From NCBI GenBank assembly GCA_025057155.1, contig JANWYD010000001.1, forward strand, positions 62,001 through 126,000: a DNA stretch of 64,000 bases. The letters are read 5' to 3'. This stretch comes from Chloroflexaceae bacterium (GTDB taxonomy: Bacteria > Chloroflexota > Chloroflexia > Chloroflexales > Chloroflexaceae). This document shows, in pieces, positions 4,597 to 33,741 of this stretch (positions are counted from its first letter, which is position 1; each line of letters opens with the position of its first letter). A program made the position numbers and the translations under genes. Under the pieces are notes generated by a model. The model ran no database searches, was not told where the DNA came from, and worked only from the letters and a program-made list of their open reading frames with translations.

Positions 4597-7065
4597 TCAG
4601 AGCCGCCTGCCACTCAACTGGCCGCCGAAGCCGGGGCTGATCTGGTCGGCCAGTTCGGGGCGCACGGCGATGATCACATCAGTCGAACCCAGGCGCTCGC
4701 CAAGATCGCGAAACATCAGAAAGCGCCACCAGCGTTCGCCCACCCCGCGGTCGAAGGGCGCGCGCAGGGCCTGGCCGAGAAGCGACACCTGCTCCAGGGG
4801 CGCCTGGCGCCAGCCCGGGCCCAACCGGTAGACGTGATCCTCGGGAAACCACCAGCGCAGGGGGTAACGCTGGATCACGAAGCCCTCCAGATAGCGCCGG
4901 TTCTCCGGGTAGCGATCATAGTTCTCCTGGAGCAGTAGCACGGCCATAATCCGCGCGTCGGGCGGCTCCAGCAATTGCCCGCCGATGCGCTCGGCGGCGC
5001 TGAAATCGCGCAGGTACCAGCTCCAGATGGTCTCGTTGTCATAGATAATCGGCAGGGCCAGCCCCCGGCCCCGGCGGATGGAGGCCTCTTCCAGGCGGCG
5101 CACGATGCGCATCATATCCGGCGAGGTCTGCGTGTAGACCATAGCCTCAACCGGGACATCACCATTGACGTAGGCCAGGCGCACTGCTGAGCGGAAGGTG
5201 TAGAGGCCCACGGCGATCCCAAGACAGGCGGCGAGCAGGGTCACGGCGTGTCCCGGCCCCCAGCGCAGGGCGGCGCCGGTGGTCAGCAGCGCAATCAGCC
5301 CCAGCGCCGCTGCCGGCACCACCCAGGGCGCCAGCGCTGACTGTTCACCAAAGGCCACAATGGCCGTCAGCAGCACAAAGCTCAGCCCGACAATAATCGC
5401 GAAGAGGGTTGCGTAGATTGTCCAGGCGGCGCGAACAGAGGCGCGGGCCAGGGCCGCGTCCTCGGCGGCCAGTTCGGCCTCCTCTCTGGCGCGCCAGCGG
5501 TTCCAGATCAGGCGTTGCGCGCCCCAGGCCGCCAGCAAGGTCAGCGGCACGCTGATGTGGATGGTCAGCCAGGGCATCTTCTCGCCGGCCCAGGTGTAGA
5601 TGCCCAGGGCGGCCAGCGTCCACCAGGCCAGCAGGTAGACGCCAGGGCCAGCCTGCTGACCGGGACATGCCGGCCCGTCCTCCGCAGCGTCCGGCCCTTG
5701 CCCCGAACGGCGCGCGGCACGCAGGGCGTCCAGAGCCGCCAGCACGAGGGCCGCGCCGCCGAAGATCAGCAGCAGCGGCTCGTAGACGCCAAGCAGAAAG
5801 AAGTAATAGTGCCCGGGCTGTCCGCCACGCTCGACGTTGTGTTGCGCGAGCCAGTAGAGCAGCGACCCGGTTACGCCGCTGATCACGCCGATAATGTTGG
5901 TGAAGAAGGCAGTGAAGAACACCGTGTAGATACCCAGCACGATCAGCAGGGCCACCAGCCAGCGCCGACCGGCGCCAAGGCTGGCAAAGACCTCCGCCGC
6001 CGGATCGCCGCGCTCGCGAGCGACCTGCCAGGGGGTGCGCCCGTCTGCTCCAGGGCGCCGCCAGATCAGGTAGCTCAGCGTCGCCAGGACGCCGAGGGTC
6101 AACCCGATCGCCAGCAGCACCGCCGGATGGCGGAAGAACTGCCACAGGTCGCGCAGGTACAGGCCCAGATTGGCAAAGAGACTGCGCCCGCCGTCATTAT
6201 CAGGGCGATTACGCACGCGCAGGGCATAGCTATTATCCTCGGTCTCCAGGGGCGGCCAGCCAAACCACCCCGGCCGCTCGACGATCAACTCGCCTGTCTG
6301 TGGATCGCGCATGGCGTGGTGCGCGCCATCCACCTGGGCGTGGCCGGGCAGCACAAAGATCAGCGCGGCAACCCCTGCCCCCAGCAGGCCCGCCAGCATG
6401 ATCCCCGGACGGTACACGCGCCACAGGAAAGCTGCCGTCAGGGGCGCGGCCATGATCAGGGAGAAGAGATAGGTCGTCTCATGGTTCACCAGCATCAACG
6501 CGAAGGCGCTCGCGCCCACGAAGAGCCAGGCGGGGCGGCGCGTGGCGCCGTAGCGCACAATCGCAGCGAAAACCAGGACTTCACATAACACTGAATAGAT
6601 GTCGTGGCGGAAGAAGCGCCCGACATACAGGGCCACCGGCGAAATCAGGAAATAGACGGCAGCGATGAGCGCCGCAGCGCGCCCCAGCGTCTGGCGCAGG
6701 AGGTAGGGCGAGAGGGTGAGAGCGGTGCCGGCCAGGGCCGGCCCCAGACGGGCGACGAAGTCGTTATCGCCAAAGAGGAAAAAGAGCGCCGCTCCCAGAT
6801 AGTAGAGCAGCGGGCCGTGGAGCAGGGGATCGTGGATGTATCCGCGGCCCATCAGCAGGTACCACGAATACGCTGCGTGGAGCGTCTCATCGTGGTGCAG
6901 GGCCCGGTCGCCGAGCGCCCAGAGGTGGGCAAGCAGGGCTGCCACTCCCAGCGTCAGGTAGGCCGCCTGCTCGACTGTAAGCAACCAGAGCCGGGAAGTA
7001 GTTGCGCCCGTGCCGGAGGCAGGCTCGGAAGCGGTCCGTGGCCGCGACAGTTCAAGCGTTGACAT
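4597..7065 (-). CDS. Agl23-type membrane glycosyltransferase-like protein
   Basis: 822 residues and polytopic. It is a paralogue of the neighbouring 830-4432 gene but lacks the NHL propeller. After an N-terminal segment rich in Ser and Thr, the first membrane helix (AAYLTLGVAALLAHLWAL) leads into HHDETLHAAYSW, matching the HHDESIHA motif of the paralogue. Later landmarks in common are HGPLLYYLGAALFFLFGD, a GEKMPWLTIHISVP segment and VYTQTSPDMMRIVRRLEE. The C-terminal ~150 residues are soluble (IIYDNETIWSWYLRDF) and presumably extracytoplasmic. These are features of TIGR03663/GT39-like GT-C proteins. A sigma-70-like promoter lies at 7110-7138, so this gene probably leads a transcript that includes the paralogue. 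The sugar donor and acceptor cannot be read from the sequence. Confidence 0.8.
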   Translation of the reverse strand: MSTLELSRPRTASEPASGTGATTSRLWLLTVEQAAYLTLGVAALLAHLWALGDRALHHDETLHAAYSWYLLMGRGYIHDPLLHGPLLYYLGAALFFLFGDNDFVARLGPALAGTALTLSPYLLRQTLGRAAALIAAVYFLISPVALYVGRFFRHDIYSVLCEVLVFAAIVRYGATRRPAWLFVGASAFALMLVNHETTYLFSLIMAAPLTAAFLWRVYRPGIMLAGLLGAGVAALIFVLPGHAQVDGAHHAMRDPQTGELIVERPGWFGWPPLETEDNSYALRVRNRPDNDGGRSLFANLGLYLRDLWQFFRHPAVLLAIGLTLGVLATLSYLIWRRPGADGRTPWQVARERGDPAAEVFASLGAGRRWLVALLIVLGIYTVFFTAFFTNIIGVISGVTGSLLYWLAQHNVERGGQPGHYYFFLLGVYEPLLLIFGGAALVLAALDALRAARRSGQGPDAAEDGPACPGQQAGPGVYLLAWWTLAALGIYTWAGEKMPWLTIHISVPLTLLAAWGAQRLIWNRWRAREEAELAAEDAALARASVRAAWTIYATLFAIIVGLSFVLLTAIVAFGEQSALAPWVVPAAALGLIALLTTGAALRWGPGHAVTLLAACLGIAVGLYTFRSAVRLAYVNGDVPVEAMVYTQTSPDMMRIVRRLEEASIRRGRGLALPIIYDNETIWSWYLRDFSAAERIGGQLLEPPDARIMAVLLLQENYDRYPENRRYLEGFVIQRYPLRWWFPEDHVYRLGPGWRQAPLEQVSLLGQALRAPFDRGVGERWWRFLMFRDLGERLGSTDVIIAVRPELADQISPGFGGQLSGRRL

Positions 7066-7109
7066 GCACTACCCGTAGGCCCAACAGCGCCGGTTCCACA
7101 TTCCGTGGC

Positions 7110-7138
7110 ATTGTACACGATGGGGATGCGCCGGGCAA
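7110..7138 (-). promoter_or_regulatory. Sigma-70-type promoter upstream of the Agl23-like gene
   Basis: On the minus strand TTGCCC (7138-7133) is separated by 17 bases from TACAAT (7115-7110). The downstream start codon is at 7065. Confidence 0.6.
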
Positions 7139-7151
7139 GGCGAGGGTGGAA

Positions 7152-7343
7152 GTGCGGAGGTGCGGAGGTGTGGAGGTGTGGAGGTGTGGAGGTGTGGAGG
7201 TGTGGAGGTGTGGAGGTGTGGAGGTGTGGAGGTGTAGATGGATCGCTTATAAGTTCCATAAATGCATCTAAACAATTTAGCTCCAAATCTCTGCATCTCC
7301 ACACCTCTACATCTCCACACCTCTACATCTCCACACCTCCACA
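7152..7343. repeat. GTGGAGGT octamer array with a facing complementary arm
   Basis: Ten tandem 8-bp units of the GTGTGGAG/GTGCGGAG type occupy 7152-7231, with a partial unit to 7237. After a 60-bp spacer, 7296-7343 carries the complementary sequence (CTCCACACCTC with CTACATCTC variants). The two arms could fold into a long imperfect hairpin between the acylase stop and the Agl23-like promoter. A similar arrangement occurs at 21393-21480. Confidence 0.85.
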
Positions 7344-7347
7344 TATC

Positions 7348-9810
7348 TTACCGCGGTTCCAGGAACAGTACATCGGCCGTATGGCGCTCGACCGCTTCGC
7401 GGCTCCACAGGAGCGGGCAGTAACCGCCCGCGCGCCACGTGCCGGCCAGATCGGCATAGTGGCTGCTCATCGGATGACCGCTCTGCCCGGCGGGGATGAT
7501 CACCCGTGCCGCGTCCCAGTCGCCAGGATCGAAGATCTGCCGGTAGGAGGGGGCGTTGTAGATCGGCCCGGCGGCCGTCTGGCGCGGCACATACTGCTGG
7601 TTCACAGTGTCCACATCGCCGCCGGTCGGCCAGGGGCCGCGATTGAAGATCGGCGCCAATGCCGGCACGCTTCCCAGCGGATGGCGCAGCGTTAGCGTAT
7701 GGACCTTGCCGTAGCTCCATTTACTCGGATCGGGGCCGAGTTTTTCGCGCAGCTCGGCCACGGCCAGCCGCAGCGCCTCGCCGAGCACCGCGCCCCAACT
7801 GCGCTCGCCGCCGAGCCAGGCATCCGGCCGAGCCAGGTCGGTGGCGCCCTCGGCGCGCGCCAGCACCTCAGGCAGGGCGCGTTCCAGATAGGTGTTGGAG
7901 GGCAGCGCGCCGAAGGCCCCCAGCCCCCCCTGGGCGCCGATCAACTCGCCAAGCTCGGCATAGACTACCCGCAGCAGGTGGTGGCGCAGGGCATCGTAGA
8001 CTGCGCCAGCGGGCGCGTCAGCCGTCAACTCGCCGTCCCAAGCTGCCAGGAGGTCGCGTGCGGCCCGTTCCAGGCGCTCCTCAGGTTCGAGGCGCGCCGC
8101 CAGACGGGCCAGTTGCAACCCCGGCAGGCTGCGCACGTCGGCCTGAATATGGGCGAAGCTGCGCACGTCGTGCCGCTCCACGCGCTGTAATAGCTCGGTA
8201 ATCCGTTCGGCGCGGTAGGGATTGGCCCAGTCGCCGTGGATGGCATCGTGATAGGGGTGGTTGGCGCCGACGATGCGGTTGTTCGCCGAAACCACCAGGC
8301 CGCCTGGCGGGTCGAGCGCGGCAGGCAGGGACAGGTTGGGGATGAAGCCCTGCCATTCGTGCTCGCCGTCCCAGCCGGGCACGGGCGTTTGCCCGTCTCC
8401 CTTTGCCCGCACGGGTAAGCGGCCGCCCACCGCGTAGCCAATGTGCCCGTCCACGTCGGCGTAGACGAAGTTCTGCGGCGGCACGTCCCAGTCTTCAAGC
8501 GCGGCGCGGAACTCGTCCCAATCACGGGCGCGGTTGAGGCGCAGCACCGCCCGCGTCACCGCTGGCGACGGATCGAGCGCCGTCCAGCGCAGCGCCAGGG
8601 CCTGATGGGGTGCGGCCGGCTCGGTGCGGCGGAACGGTGAGCCTTCAGGGCCGGCGATCTCGTCAATAATCGGACCGTGGCGGGTCAGACGCACGTCAAC
8701 CAGCACGACTTCTTTCTGGCCCTTGACCACGATCTCCTCGCGCAGGCTCTCCACCTCGCGCCACTCGCCCCGCCACTCGTAGAGGTCGGGGTTTTCGGGA
8801 TGGAACCGTTCGATGTAGAGGTCCTGATTATCGGTCATCGTATTGGTCTGGCCCCAGGCGATGCGATCGTTATGCCCGATAATCACGCCGCAGGTGCCCG
8901 GAATGGTCGCGCCGGCCACCTTGAAGTCGCCGCCCTCCAGATGGGCCAGGTACCACAGACCAGGCAGCCCCAGGCTCAGATGGGGATCCTCGGCCAGCAG
9001 GGGACGGCCGGTAGTGGTCCGCGCGCCAGAGACGGCCCAGGCGTTGGAGCCCTGGGGCGTGCCGCTCTCGCCGGTAAAGGGGGCTGCCTCGGCGGCGAGC
9101 CGCAGGGCGCCCTCGCCGAGGCGCGGCGGCAACTCCGCTTCCGGGGGCACGGTGACCACCGCGGCGCCCGGATAGCGCGGCGCAATGGCCGCGGCCCGTT
9201 CATAGCCCACGGCGGCAATGATCTTGCTATTGAGCAACTCGCCCGTCCAGTTCCCTGAAAGCGTCAGGGCCATAACCTTGGGCCAGACCAGAATGTCCAC
9301 CAGTTCCCAGGGGCGCGGCTGGAACCCGAGAAGGGTGAACTCCAGCGGCAGCCGCCCGCGACTGGCTTCCAGACAGGCGTTGACGCCACGGACGTAGGCT
9401 TCCAGGATCAGGCGCGTCTCCTTATCGAGCAACTCGACCTCGCGCCGGGCGATGCGCTCGAAGCCCAGGGTGCGCACGAACTGGTCAGAACTCAGGGCCA
9501 CCGGGCCGAAGATCTCGGCCAGTTGACCCCGCCCGGTGCGGCGGTTCAACTCCATCTGCCACAGTCGGTCCTGGGCATGCACATACCCCAGCGCAGCGAA
9601 AAGATCGGCGTTGCTCGCGGCATAGAGATGCGGAATGCCCCAGCGATCGCGGCGCACCTCGACCTGAGCGGCAAGGCCCGGCAGCGGCTGCCGCCCGGTG
9701 ACGCGCGGCAGCGAACGGCGCAAAGCTGTAACGACGCCGATACCCACGGCGCCAGCAGCGAGACCGACGGTGAGGCCGAGCATCCGGGCAAGGCGAGGTA
9801 ACTCTGTCAT
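7348..9810 (-). CDS. Penicillin acylase family (peptidase S45) Ntn hydrolase
   Basis: 820 residues from ATG 9810. This start has AAAGGTG upstream and lies about 35 bases after a promoter -10 at 9853-9848; the in-frame ATG at 9876 lies inside that promoter and is rejected. Residues 10-30 form a single hydrophobic anchor or signal. The sequence RDRWGIPHLYAAS, then GYVHAQDRLWQMELNRR, is diagnostic of S45 amidohydrolases. The precursor should cleave before Ser255 in GSNAWAVSG, creating the N-terminal nucleophile of the beta chain; the beta-chain Asn and Arg positions appear conserved in NRIVGANHPYH. Family members hydrolyse acyl-amide bonds, including beta-lactams and acyl-homoserine lactones. 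The natural substrate here is unknown. Length agrees with the family. Confidence 0.92.
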   Translation of the reverse strand: MTELPRLARMLGLTVGLAAGAVGIGVVTALRRSLPRVTGRQPLPGLAAQVEVRRDRWGIPHLYAASNADLFAALGYVHAQDRLWQMELNRRTGRGQLAEIFGPVALSSDQFVRTLGFERIARREVELLDKETRLILEAYVRGVNACLEASRGRLPLEFTLLGFQPRPWELVDILVWPKVMALTLSGNWTGELLNSKIIAAVGYERAAAIAPRYPGAAVVTVPPEAELPPRLGEGALRLAAEAAPFTGESGTPQGSNAWAVSGARTTTGRPLLAEDPHLSLGLPGLWYLAHLEGGDFKVAGATIPGTCGVIIGHNDRIAWGQTNTMTDNQDLYIERFHPENPDLYEWRGEWREVESLREEIVVKGQKEVVLVDVRLTRHGPIIDEIAGPEGSPFRRTEPAAPHQALALRWTALDPSPAVTRAVLRLNRARDWDEFRAALEDWDVPPQNFVYADVDGHIGYAVGGRLPVRAKGDGQTPVPGWDGEHEWQGFIPNLSLPAALDPPGGLVVSANNRIVGANHPYHDAIHGDWANPYRAERITELLQRVERHDVRSFAHIQADVRSLPGLQLARLAARLEPEERLERAARDLLAAWDGELTADAPAGAVYDALRHHLLRVVYAELGELIGAQGGLGAFGALPSNTYLERALPEVLARAEGATDLARPDAWLGGERSWGAVLGEALRLAVAELREKLGPDPSKWSYGKVHTLTLRHPLGSVPALAPIFNRGPWPTGGDVDTVNQQYVPRQTAAGPIYNAPSYRQIFDPGDWDAARVIIPAGQSGHPMSSHYADLAGTWRAGGYCPLLWSREAVERHTADVLFLEPR

Positions 9811-20453: not shown

Positions 20454-21314
20454 TCAGGCGAGGGCCTGGGAGGTCACGACCCCGGCCAGCGCCTCCACAT
20501 GTCGATCATCCAGGCCCAGTTCCGCCGGGTCGAGGCCGAATGCCAGGCCAATCGCCTGGGTGTAATACAGCACCGGCAGCGGCGCGCCGGTATCGGGTTG
20601 AAACTTCGCAAAGTTGAAGTGACACAGCGGGCACGAGAGCACAATCACCCCGGCGCCGGCATCGCGGGCCTGCTCCACCGTCGCGTGTACTCGCTCGGTG
20701 ACCAGCGCCGGTCGGTCCACTGCCAGGTACGCCCCGCAACACTGCGTTTGCAGCGACCCCTCGACCACGGTCGCGCCCAGGGCCTCCATCAGGTCGCGCA
20801 GCAGGGTTGGCGTCTCGGGGTCGTCGAGGCCGATCCCCGCCGGGCGCAGCAATTTGCATCCGTAGTAGGGGTACACCGCCAGGTCGCGCAGGGGACGCCG
20901 CACCCGCTTGCGGATCGCTGCCAGCCCCACCCGGTCGCGCAGGAGGTGCAGCAGGTGCAGCACCTCGCCAGCGCCGTCATAGTCCAGACCGCCGCCGCTG
21001 GTCGCATTGAGGGCGGCCACCTGCTCCGGTTGCGTCCGCGCCAGGTGATTGGCCCGCGCCAGCGTGTTGAAGCACATATCGCACAGCGTTACCGCCTCGC
21101 GCTCACCCTGCTGCCGCAGGCGCGCCAGCGTTCGCAGCGGCGCCATGTGCCGGATCAGGTTCTCTCCCGTAAGGGTATGAACCACGCCGCAGCAGTTCCA
21201 CTCGGGCATCTCGCGCAGAGAGACGCCCAGTTCCCTGAGTATCGCCAGCGCCGCCCGCTCGTGCTCGCGCGCCGAGACCTTGATGGTGCAGCCAGGGTAA
21301 TAGGCCAGTTGCAT
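20454..21314 (-). CDS. hdrB: Heterodisulfide reductase subunit B-like protein (two CCG domains)
   Basis: 286 residues from ATG 21314, with GAGGAA upstream; GTG 21338 is an alternative. Two CCG motifs are complete: Cys in YYPGC, then WNCCG, then LCDMC; and YYGCKLL, then TQCCGAY, then SCPLC. In HdrB of methanogens these bind two noncubane [4Fe-4S] clusters at the disulfide-reducing site. Both sets of cysteines are present, so an intact centre is expected. With the next upstream gene (hdrC-like) it forms the usual HdrCB pair, but it also sits beside frdB/frdA, so it could serve as the SdhE/TfrB-type subunit. The natural acceptor is not known. No methanogen-style CoM-S-S-CoB chemistry is expected in a bacterium of this type. 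Confidence 0.9.
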   Translation of the reverse strand: MQLAYYPGCTIKVSAREHERAALAILRELGVSLREMPEWNCCGVVHTLTGENLIRHMAPLRTLARLRQQGEREAVTLCDMCFNTLARANHLARTQPEQVAALNATSGGGLDYDGAGEVLHLLHLLRDRVGLAAIRKRVRRPLRDLAVYPYYGCKLLRPAGIGLDDPETPTLLRDLMEALGATVVEGSLQTQCCGAYLAVDRPALVTERVHATVEQARDAGAGVIVLSCPLCHFNFAKFQPDTGAPLPVLYYTQAIGLAFGLDPAELGLDDRHVEALAGVVTSQALA

Positions 21315-21392
21315 GGCAGGGCTTCTTTCCTCAGGCACGTTTCAGATCTGGACGGTCCATGTTGAGCGTTGCTCCACGGCCCACTGACTGGT

Positions 21393-21480
21393 CTGTGGAG
21401 GTGTGGAGATGTAGTGGTGTGGAGCTGTGAATCAAATGGCCTTACACCTCCACACCTCCACACTTCCACACCTCCACACC
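21393..21480. repeat. GTGGAGGT array with complementary arm, inside the hdr operon
   Basis: The left arm (21393-21430) reads GTGGAGGTGTGGAGATG with variants. The right arm (21443-21480) reads CACCTCCACACCTCCAC with variants. It occupies the hdrC-hdrB spacer and repeats the design at 7152-7343. Confidence 0.8.
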
Positions 21481-21481
21481 C

Positions 21482-21886
21482 TCACCCCGTCTGCCGGCGC
21501 AGGCTGGCGACCAGGGCGATTGGCGGCAGATCCTGGAGCGCTGCGGCGGGGATCTGCGCCACCGGCAATTGATCGCCGCGAGTACGCAGGGCGATCAGCC
21601 GCAGCGCCTCCATCACCCGCGGTACGTCAATCCCCCGCGGGCAACGCTGCGCGCACAACTCACAGCCCACGCAGACCCACAGCGTCTCGCGCTCCAGCAC
21701 TCCCGGCACATCGAACAACAGGTGGCGGATCAGCCGGTCCGGCAGCACATCCATGGCTTCGGCGAAGGGACACCCCGCCGCGCATGTGCCGCACTGGTAG
21801 CACTGCGTCAGCCGTTGCCCGCTGAGCGCCTCTACTCGCTGCAGCAAGGTCCCGGACTGGCCGTTCGCGCTGATGGTTATAGTCAT
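21482..21886 (-). CDS. hdrC: Heterodisulfide reductase subunit C-like protein
   Basis: 134 residues from ATG 21886, with AGGAGAT upstream. It has two [4Fe-4S] motifs, CYQCGTCAAGCPFAEAMD and CVGCELCAQRCPRGIDVPRVMEALR. The flanking pattern (VEALSGQRLTQCYQCGTCAAGCP, LLFDVPGVLERETLWVC) is that of HdrC. In HdrABC complexes this subunit carries electrons between the HdrA flavin site and HdrB. It precedes hdrB with a spacer holding the inverted repeat at 21393-21480, and follows the FrhB-like gene by 100 bases. Confidence 0.9.
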   Translation of the reverse strand: MTITISANGQSGTLLQRVEALSGQRLTQCYQCGTCAAGCPFAEAMDVLPDRLIRHLLFDVPGVLERETLWVCVGCELCAQRCPRGIDVPRVMEALRLIALRTRGDQLPVAQIPAAALQDLPPIALVASLRRQTG

Positions 21887-31249: not shown

Positions 31250-31840
31250 CTACGCGGTTTCGGGAATAATCAACCCATACGCTCCATCGCGGCGACGGTA
31301 GAGCACGCAGATACGCATGGTCTCAGCGTCCTGGAAGACGAAGAAGTTATGGCCGAGCAGTTCCATCTGCTCAATCGCATCCTCGGTGAACATCGGACGC
31401 AGCTTAAACTGCTTGGTGCGGATCACCGCCGGGGCCGGCGGTTCCTCGGTTGGAGCCGCCTCCGGTTCGGCTACGGCCACCAGGGGTTCGGCCTCGACCT
31501 GTGGCTCGACTGGCTCAACAGGCCGGCGTGATCGGCCACGGCGCCAGTATTTCTCTTTGTAGCGCGTGATCTGCCGCTGGAGCACTTCCTGCACCGCATC
31601 AACCGCGCTGTACAGGTCGGGCGCCTCCTCTTCGGCGCGGAGATAGACGCCATGCTCGCCGACCAGCGTGACCTGTACCCGGTGCACCTCGCCGGCGTTT
31701 CGATGCATTTCTGTGTGGACCTCGACGGTAGCGCTGGTGATCCCGTCCATGTAGCGCGCGAGCTTGCTCAGTTTCTCGTCAATGTGCTGGCGTTGGCGCT
31801 CGGTGATCTTACCATTGCGGCTCTTGACGGTCAGTTCCAT
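31250..31840 (-). CDS. hpf: Long-form ribosome hibernation promoting factor
   Basis: 196 residues, ATG preceded by GGAGG. The N-terminal S30AE domain covers residues 1-100 (ELTVKSRNGKITERQRQHIDEKLSKLARY, VQVTLVGEHGVYLRAEEEAPDLYSAVDAVQEVLQRQI). A ~40-residue acidic and Pro-rich linker follows. The C-terminal S30AE_C domain (RTKQFKLRPMFTEDAIEQMELLGHNFFVFQDAETMRI) is the part that dimerises 70S ribosomes in long HPFs. It has its own promoter (32117-32145) and an approximately 270-base leader with strong hairpins, which suggests post-transcriptional control. Confidence 0.95.
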   Translation of the reverse strand: MELTVKSRNGKITERQRQHIDEKLSKLARYMDGITSATVEVHTEMHRNAGEVHRVQVTLVGEHGVYLRAEEEAPDLYSAVDAVQEVLQRQITRYKEKYWRRGRSRRPVEPVEPQVEAEPLVAVAEPEAAPTEEPPAPAVIRTKQFKLRPMFTEDAIEQMELLGHNFFVFQDAETMRICVLYRRRDGAYGLIIPETA

Positions 31841-31868
31841 CGTGGTCCTCCATCAATTCCGTGTTCAG

Positions 31869-31938
31869 GGGCGCGACCGCGCCCGTGCCGTTCGATCAAA
31901 CGCCAAAGCCCTCAGGCGCATGAAGGCCGAGGGCTTTG
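31869..31938 (-). promoter_or_regulatory. Structured leader of hpf
   Basis: Two stems lie in the 5' leader: CAAAGCCCTC paired with GAGGGCTTTG (31904-31913 with 31929-31938), and GGGCGC-GACC-GCGCCC (31869-31884) about 20 bases before the ribosome site. No known riboswitch class is recognised. Confidence 0.5.
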
Positions 31939-32116
31939 ATTACAGTTAGTAGTTCGCGCGGATTTCAGGGATAGCGCGGTTTAGCTCCATCGCTTGCCAC
32001 TTCCTGTCGCAGCGCAATACCACGTCGTGTTACGCTGTGCCGCATCTGGCGCCCAGGCCGGCGCCGGCGATGGCCACCGGGTGGCGGGCTCGAAGATCAG
32101 GTGCTTCTTCCCGCAG

Positions 32117-32145
32117 ATTGTACTACGCCAGACGTGACGATTCAA
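32117..32145 (-). promoter_or_regulatory. Sigma-70-type promoter of hpf
   Basis: TTGAAT (32145-32140), 17 bases, TACAAT (32122-32117) on the minus strand. It implies a leader of about 270 bases. Confidence 0.75.
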
Positions 32146-32175
32146 GAGTGAAACGGTAATGCTCTCTTAACACAG

Positions 32176-32330
32176 CGGGGCGGGCCGCTCGCCCGCCCCG
32201 GAGGATGCGTAGAGGATCTGTGGCAGCGCGCACCTCCGACACGCGGCAAGGGGGAATGCTACGATGTCTGGTGCAATGTCGTTGCGTGCCGGCCCCGACG
32301 CGGTGCTCGCTGCCACAGATCTTCCCCCTT
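32176..32330 (-). ncRNA. Candidate small structured RNA gene
   Basis: The segment lies in a 560-bp spacer (31841-32400). A 14-bp perfect stem joins 32215-32228 with 32308-32321, and after one mismatch a further 5 bp pair (32230-32234 with 32302-32306). A shorter inner CGGCA/TGCCG pairing is possible. AAGGGGGAA inside (32248-32256) is also complementary to TTCCCCCTT at 32322-32330, so an alternative fold exists. A -10-like TACAGT sits at 32346-32341, and a 10-bp GC hairpin (32176-32185 with 32191-32200) lies on the other side like a terminator. No match to SRP RNA, tmRNA or RNase P RNA was recognised; strand is inferred from the -10 and hairpin order. Confidence 0.4.
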
Positions 32331-32400
32331 GGCGTAAGCAACTGTATCACGCGCCGATGAAAAGGCTCTGAAAAGGGGGTTGCTTTAGATGAGGGAAGCG

Positions 32401-33681
32401 TTAAACTTTATGCAACCTCTGGCCCGCGAGATCGAAGTAGAATGCCCGCGCGCGCGCGTAGGCGGCGTCCCAGGTGTACATGCGCAGCACTTTGGCGCGG
32501 CCCGCGGCGCCCAGCGCTCGCGCCGCGTCCCGGTCGCGGATCAGGCGGGCGATGGCGGCGGCGAGCGCGGTGACGTCGCCAAAGGGCACCAGCAGTCCAT
32601 TGACGCCGTCGTCAATGACCGCGGGCACGCCGCCGGCGCGCGCGCCGATCACCGGCGCCTCATAGCACCACGCTTCCAGATAGGCGATCCCGAAGCTGTC
32701 GGTGCGCGAGGGTTGCGCGTATACGTCGGCGGCGGCCAGGGCGTCGCGCCGCACCGCGTCGCTCACATACCCCAGGACGCGCGTGCGAGCGCGCTCGGCG
32801 GCGGGCAGCCTGCGGTAATAGTCCTCGAAGTGGCTCAAGAGCGGCCCGCACTGCACCCAGGTGATGTCATGACCGGCGGCCCACAGCCGCCGCAGGGCCT
32901 CCAGCACGTGGAGCGTGCCCTTGTCAAAGGCTGCCGCGCCAAGGCTCAGCACCATCGGCCCGGTAATCGCGTGGGTCGCTCGGAACCGCGCTCCATCGCC
33001 GCCGGCCACCTCCGCCGGATCGACTCCCGCCCCTACCACCCGCACTCGCTCCGCCGCGACGCCCTGGCGCACGAGGAAGTCGCGCTCCAGGTCGGTCATC
33101 GTCGCCACGCCGTCGCTCGCGCGCAGCAGGGCCATCTGGTGCGGCATGCTGTAGTAGCGCACGATCTGTCGGTTTTCCGGCTCGCCGAGGTGCACAAAGG
33201 GCGTGCAGAGATGGGGAATGCCCCGCTGGCGCGCCCAGCGCGCCACCGGCACAATTGCGAAATCCAGGGTAATGTTGGTGGTATGCACCAGGGCCACATC
33301 CATCAGGTCGGGGGCGCTGGCCAGGTAGCGTTCCATATCCGGCAGCCGGGGGGTCAGCGTGGCCATGCGTTGCAACAGCGGGACCGCAGGGCGGCCGAGC
33401 CGCCCGATCTCCACCATCAGCCGGCGCAGCGCCGGGTAGACCAGCGGCGGTCCCGGCAGGCGCTGCACCGGGAAGCGCAGCACGCGCACCCCGTTATGCT
33501 CGGCTTCGCGTTCGGCAAGCGAGGCTTTCCCGGCGGCCCAGAAGTGCTCCAGATCCAGCGCGTCGGTGCTGAGCACCGTCACGCGGTGCCCCTCGCGCGC
33601 CAGCCGCTCGCCGATCTCGATGAAGTAGCGCGAAGCCCCCGAGGCCCGGTTGTAGAGTTGATTGATGTGCAGGAAGTGCAT
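32401..33681 (-). CDS. GT4-family glycosyltransferase
   Basis: 426 residues from ATG 33681. The N-terminal Rossmann half begins MHFLHINQLYNRASGASRYFIEIGERLAREGHRVTVLST, a retaining GT-B start with an Asn/Gly-rich donor loop. The C-terminal half has VVGAGVDPAEV, MVLSLGAAAFDKGTLHVLEALRRL, VYAQPSRTDSFGIAYLEAWCYEAPVIGARAGGVPAVIDDGVNGLLVPFGD, which includes the E-X7-E pattern of GT4. It probably builds a cell-surface glycan or glycolipid. The sugar is not predictable. The gene stands alone, following the YyaL-like gene by about 60 bases on the same strand, so they may share a transcript. Confidence 0.88.
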   Translation of the reverse strand: MHFLHINQLYNRASGASRYFIEIGERLAREGHRVTVLSTDALDLEHFWAAGKASLAEREAEHNGVRVLRFPVQRLPGPPLVYPALRRLMVEIGRLGRPAVPLLQRMATLTPRLPDMERYLASAPDLMDVALVHTTNITLDFAIVPVARWARQRGIPHLCTPFVHLGEPENRQIVRYYSMPHQMALLRASDGVATMTDLERDFLVRQGVAAERVRVVGAGVDPAEVAGGDGARFRATHAITGPMVLSLGAAAFDKGTLHVLEALRRLWAAGHDITWVQCGPLLSHFEDYYRRLPAAERARTRVLGYVSDAVRRDALAAADVYAQPSRTDSFGIAYLEAWCYEAPVIGARAGGVPAVIDDGVNGLLVPFGDVTALAAAIARLIRDRDAARALGAAGRAKVLRMYTWDAAYARARAFYFDLAGQRLHKV

Positions 33682-33741
33682 TGATGCGCCGCCAGCAGGT
33701 GGCATGTGGCGTGCAGGGCGGGAGAGCAGCGTAGTCGGCCA

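Follow-up and report, generated by a model that had tools for sequence, protein, structure and literature searches.

In the 64,000-nucleotide stretch of Chloroflexaceae DNA analyzed here (the window), a 560-bp spacer that separates hpf from a glycosyltransferase gene very likely encodes a real structured RNA on the minus strand, at 32165-32346. The best reading of the sequence comparisons, with a probability of roughly 0.6, is a stand-alone, trans-acting structured RNA of approximately 159 nt belonging to a narrow clade of Chloroflexales. It is most likely a previously undescribed small structured RNA and a candidate new family in Chloroflexota, a phylum with few known structured RNAs. The upstream gene, a group 1 glycosyltransferase (32401..33705, minus strand; Pfam PF00534), and the downstream gene, the long form of the ribosome hibernation factor hpf (31250..31840, minus strand; Pfam PF02482 and PF16321), lie on the same strand as the RNA. 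The order glycosyltransferase, RNA, hpf on one strand is found at 6/6 loci (the window and five relatives), and a CAP-domain gene follows hpf in each of them.

Fold, covariation and a possible pseudoknot

The element contains a perfect 14-bp stem that pairs 32215-32228 to 32308-32321 across an outer span of 107 nt and beyond which one A.G mismatch is followed by five further pairs, GCACC/GGTGC. On the plus strand, AAGGGGGAA lies at 32248-32256 and TTCCCCCTT at 32322-32330, directly outside the 14-bp stem; TACAGT occupies 32341-32346 of the minus strand and a 10-bp GC hairpin spans 32176-32200. The preliminary description, made from the letters of the window, had placed the stem (14 bp plus five pairs, about 107 nt), the nested element and its pairing partner outside the stem, TACAGT, and the hairpin correctly to the base. 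It had also called such symmetry unexpected for a random 560-bp spacer. Dinucleotide shuffling of the spacer gave an inverted repeat of at least 14 bp within 150 nt once in 1000 trials. When the window was divided into 227 half-overlapping 560-bp tiles, five contained a repeat of this kind; two of the five are the element itself, leaving three separate places. At approximately 7000-7560 and 21000-21840 of the window, the tile scan recovered further inverted repeats, perfect over 15 bp and also within 150 nt. For 32165-32346 of the minus strand the folding energy is -95.5 kcal/mol, compared with -73.7 +/- 4.6 kcal/mol for shuffled sequences (z -4.73; 1/200 as good), and the plus strand folds with a z of -3.65.

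The core alignment consists of six sequences (the window genome, G000, together with G001-G004 and G016), in which two stems contribute 27 pairs and 162 cells. P1 (5' strand 32308..32321, 3' strand 32215..32228, minus strand) and P2 (5' strand 32284..32292, 3' strand 32236..32244, minus strand) are kept paired in 98.1% of these cells. Both sides have changed in 10 of the 27 pairs, including three of the nine in P2, and in 500 shuffles neither the share of paired cells nor the number of both-side changes nor the covariation score was ever reached. The same structure slid along the alignment as a control is 26-48% paired, and a measure of further pair types shows no excess for P1 and P2, as shuffles reach the observed value in 166 of 500 cases. 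Covariation in related genomes had been proposed as a check at the outset, and compensatory changes are present. In a tally of the pair types at these 27 positions, G-U occupies 15 cells and A-C 2, which favors the minus strand. The internal loop GCGUCGGGG (32293..32301, minus strand) is invariant in 9/9 columns of 6/6 sequences while the surrounding stems vary. No conserved reading frame was found in the RNA core of the six homologues, whose net lengths differ by 1-2 nt, single-base indels included, and indels of this size argue against a protein-coding gene.

Immediately 5' of P1, the strand AAGGGGGAA (32322..32330, minus strand; GGGGGA invariant in 6/6) faces a complementary strand, UUCCCCCUU, in the C-rich apical loop (32248..32256, minus strand), and the helix between them crosses both P1 and P2. 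The preliminary description read these features as a small RNA with two mutually exclusive folds, AAGGGGGAA/UUCCCCCUU replacing P1 in one state. In the window the two strands form 10 contiguous Watson-Crick pairs, a length reached by 0/2000 loop shuffles, and in G3 the observed length is matched by 28/2000; however, by length alone with G-U pairs included, shuffles are often as long in G2 (1978/2000), G4 (1112/2000), and G1 (763/2000), this single-sequence test having taken in the window and G1-G4 and left out G16. In the alignment the nine-pair helix is kept in 85.2% of cells, and shuffles equal that paired level in 164/500 cases and the both-side pairs in 48/500; the covariation is weak because the GGGG/CCCC core barely varies. 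Since it crosses P1 and P2, this putative helix is topologically a pseudoknot and not necessarily a second exclusive fold. The minus-strand structured RNA of the preliminary description is borne out by the covariation, but exclusivity of the two folds is not required, and P1, with 14 perfect pairs, is present in the minimum-free-energy fold and would be expected to be far stabler than the competing helix. A two-state RNA is consequently unlikely.

The pseudoknot, P1, and P2 can coexist if the rod bends. P1 amounts to about 20 layers and P2 plus the pseudoknot to about 18. Since the linkers measure 0 and 3 nt, all helices would close together only when the rod is folded back at the invariant loop, and the two arms would then be matched in length. 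The proposed stand-alone RNA would be a long rod composed of P1 (14 + 4 pairs), the invariant asymmetric internal loop, and P2 (9 pairs), which ends in a large loop. The C-rich part of that loop would pair with the G-run immediately 5' of P1. The invariant loop would bend the rod by approximately 180 degrees to give two side-by-side helices. Action in trans would most likely consist of presenting the invariant loop to a protein; alternatively, the C-rich loop (CCCCCUU) may be released and pair with G-rich, Shine-Dalgarno-like sites.

Putative promoter elements, probable RNA ends and a possible hpf leader

Alignment of the six homologous spacers reveals conserved blocks alternating with variable stretches, in the order two upstream blocks, extended -10, RNA core, GC hairpin, TGYGTTA, and hpf promoter. 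The putative extended -10 element, TGATACAGT (32341..32349, minus strand), has the form TGnTAnnnT in 6/6 homologues and is followed after about 10 nt by the G-run in all six; no good -35 hexamer was found for this promoter. Transcription would start a few bases past the extended -10, at about 32334. The nearer upstream block, TCAG-N7-TCAT(C) (32356..32371, minus strand), has TCAG and TCAT invariant in 6/6 with fixed spacing to the -10, and may be a promoter or regulator site. The farther block, ACGCTTCnnTCATC (32388..32401, minus strand), has 12/14 columns invariant in 6/6 sequences and could be a regulator site. Between 32356 and 32401 of the minus strand, the homologues carry two similar blocks about 30 nt apart that end in TCATC, with a single TCATA in G4; the two may form a direct repeat for a regulator.

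The RNA probably ends at the GC hairpin, at about 32176 on the minus strand. The hairpin is present, and shows paired changes, in the five sequences other than G4, where it is disrupted beside an insertion. Measured from the start to the end of the hairpin, the RNA would be 155-171 nt long in five sequences and 341 nt in G4, in which the insertion precedes the hairpin. No U-run follows the hairpin, and termination there is for this reason a guess. The insertion at this locus (L004, G004:C38) is approximately 180 nt long, lies between P1 and the hairpin, and contains repeated GAGGGCTGCGCCCTCCC palindromes, with the core intact.

Since the RNA lies directly upstream of hpf on the same strand in 6/6 loci, with a conserved hairpin between them, it might be a cis-acting leader or switch in which the fold and the GC hairpin control read-through into hpf. 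However, a separate hpf promoter lies between the RNA and the gene (TTGAAT-N17-TACAAT; 32117..32145, minus strand), represented by TAGTACAAT in 20/30 hpf loci examined, including relatives without the RNA, and this conservation casts doubt on a leader role. The element is also about 320 nt from the hpf start, and inspection by eye revealed no competing base-pairing of the RNA with the hairpin that the homologues share. The RNA is probably not an hpf leader, and such a role is doubtful. A search for a consistent pairing site between the RNA loop and the hpf 5' UTR found none. No credible copy of the RNA was found in six glycosyltransferase-hpf spacers from relatives lacking it, and because these relatives keep both the gene pair and the hpf promoter, the RNA appears to be an added, clade-specific unit.

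The hpf 5' UTR itself (31841-32116, minus strand) has both-side changes in 13/26 predicted pairs among 17 aligned leaders. It contains the blocks GAAGTG..GCGATG, and at 31905-31937 it has the hairpin AAAGCCCTCGG..GAGGGCTTT. In the hpf leader of G006 (L146), TTTTTGTTTTG comes after a related hairpin in an attenuator-like arrangement. The region looks like a second structured leader that is family-wide, and no Rfam match above cut-off was obtained for it in the window.

Distribution among relatives

A DNA search of 61 genomes (E <=0.001) gave matches in seven, of which six (G000-G004 and G016) hold the homologous spacer; the seventh, G025, has a short chance match. Short matches at L007, L012, and L013, presumably part of hisF read antisense, were dropped as chance, as were those at L010, L011, and L014. 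The RNA model matches 6/158 genomes of the class, with one copy in each. In a phylum sample of 400 genomes, it matched four of the known six and G459; G003 and G016 were either undrawn or lost at a stricter first look, and the G459 match (26.2 bits) lacks the model centre and was set aside as chance. A search with filters off through hpf loci from Oscillochloris and further relatives yielded no credible copy. The RNA thus occurs in one genus and one relative among the genomes searched, with weak evidence for its absence from the wider phylum, and this narrow spread limits the weight of the finding.

The distribution also bears on whether the RNA could be a product of the glycosyltransferase 3' UTR, set free from that mRNA, and have no promoter of its own. 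In the window the two lie on one strand and the RNA would start about 55-80 nt past the stop codon of the glycosyltransferase, which fits such an origin. However, the extended -10 and the upstream blocks at fixed spacing are conserved in 6/6, and the glycosyltransferase is present in 38/41 genomes of the family compared with the few class genomes that match the RNA model, so that a 3' UTR origin is improbable. A DNA-level palindrome or mobile-element remnant, suggested by the strong inverted repeat and the good fold of the plus strand, is highly improbable given the single copy in each of the six matching genomes, the G-U asymmetry, and the invariant single-stranded loop.

Comparison with known structured RNAs

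Rfam scans at gathering score and with E up to 10 returned chance matches only, and no family fits the element. The preliminary description had suggested covariance searches against 6S and other housekeeping RNA models; these produced no match at the element for 6S RNA (RF00013), SRP RNA, tmRNA, or RNase P RNA. The genome has its own 6S RNA elsewhere (G000:C20:41995-42166, 65.6 bits), and 6S RNA is present in 5/5 genomes of the genus. Also elsewhere in the window's genome are SRP RNA (G000:C8, 58.2 bits), tmRNA (G000:C8, 175.9 bits), and a partial RNase P match under its cut-off (G000:C20, 47.4 bits). The element was accordingly rejected as a missing housekeeping RNA, there being no model match and 6S, SRP, and tmRNA genes elsewhere. 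It does resemble 6S RNA in size and in being a long rod with an internal loop, but its internal loop is strongly asymmetric, unlike that of 6S RNA. Chloroflexi-1 RNA (RF01698), another candidate structured RNA from the same phylum, is listed for Chloroflexus aggregans in PMC2864571, and gave no match in the Rfam scans of the element. The literature searched, including the accessible portions of PMC11706538, PMC11751092, and PMC2864571, does not describe the RNA; subscription papers fell mostly outside this search.

Another close likeness is to raiA/ModT RNA, which is also structured and located upstream of hpf (raiA), and is pseudoknotted, as the element may be. This RNA occurs in Bacillota and Actinomycetota, in phyla other than that of the element. 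A scan of the six spacers with the raiA model (RF03072; gathering score 101.3 bits) found no match at E up to 10, while with the same tool two of three Clostridium hpf loci scored 197.6 and 193.6 bits. The element was rejected as a raiA homologue, with 0/41 relatives above the cut-off and a best score of 16.4 bits (L015). In PMC11751092, raiA RNA is described as having eight helices (P1-P8), two pseudoknots, and a bend of nearly 180 degrees; the element has just two supported main stems and a single tentative pseudoknot. Adjacency to the raiA/hpf gene, given as 66% of cases in PMC11706538, is found for the element at 6/6 loci. It is quite unlikely, though conceivable, that the element represents a new class of folded-back, two-layer pseudoknot RNA serving a stationary-phase or ribosome-hibernation programme of Chloroflexales, similar to raiA RNA and of separate origin. 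Beside hpf, an RNA whose stems covary around an invariant loop is a second structured RNA adjoining a hibernation gene, and whether RNAs of this kind are linked to hibernation becomes testable in another phylum.
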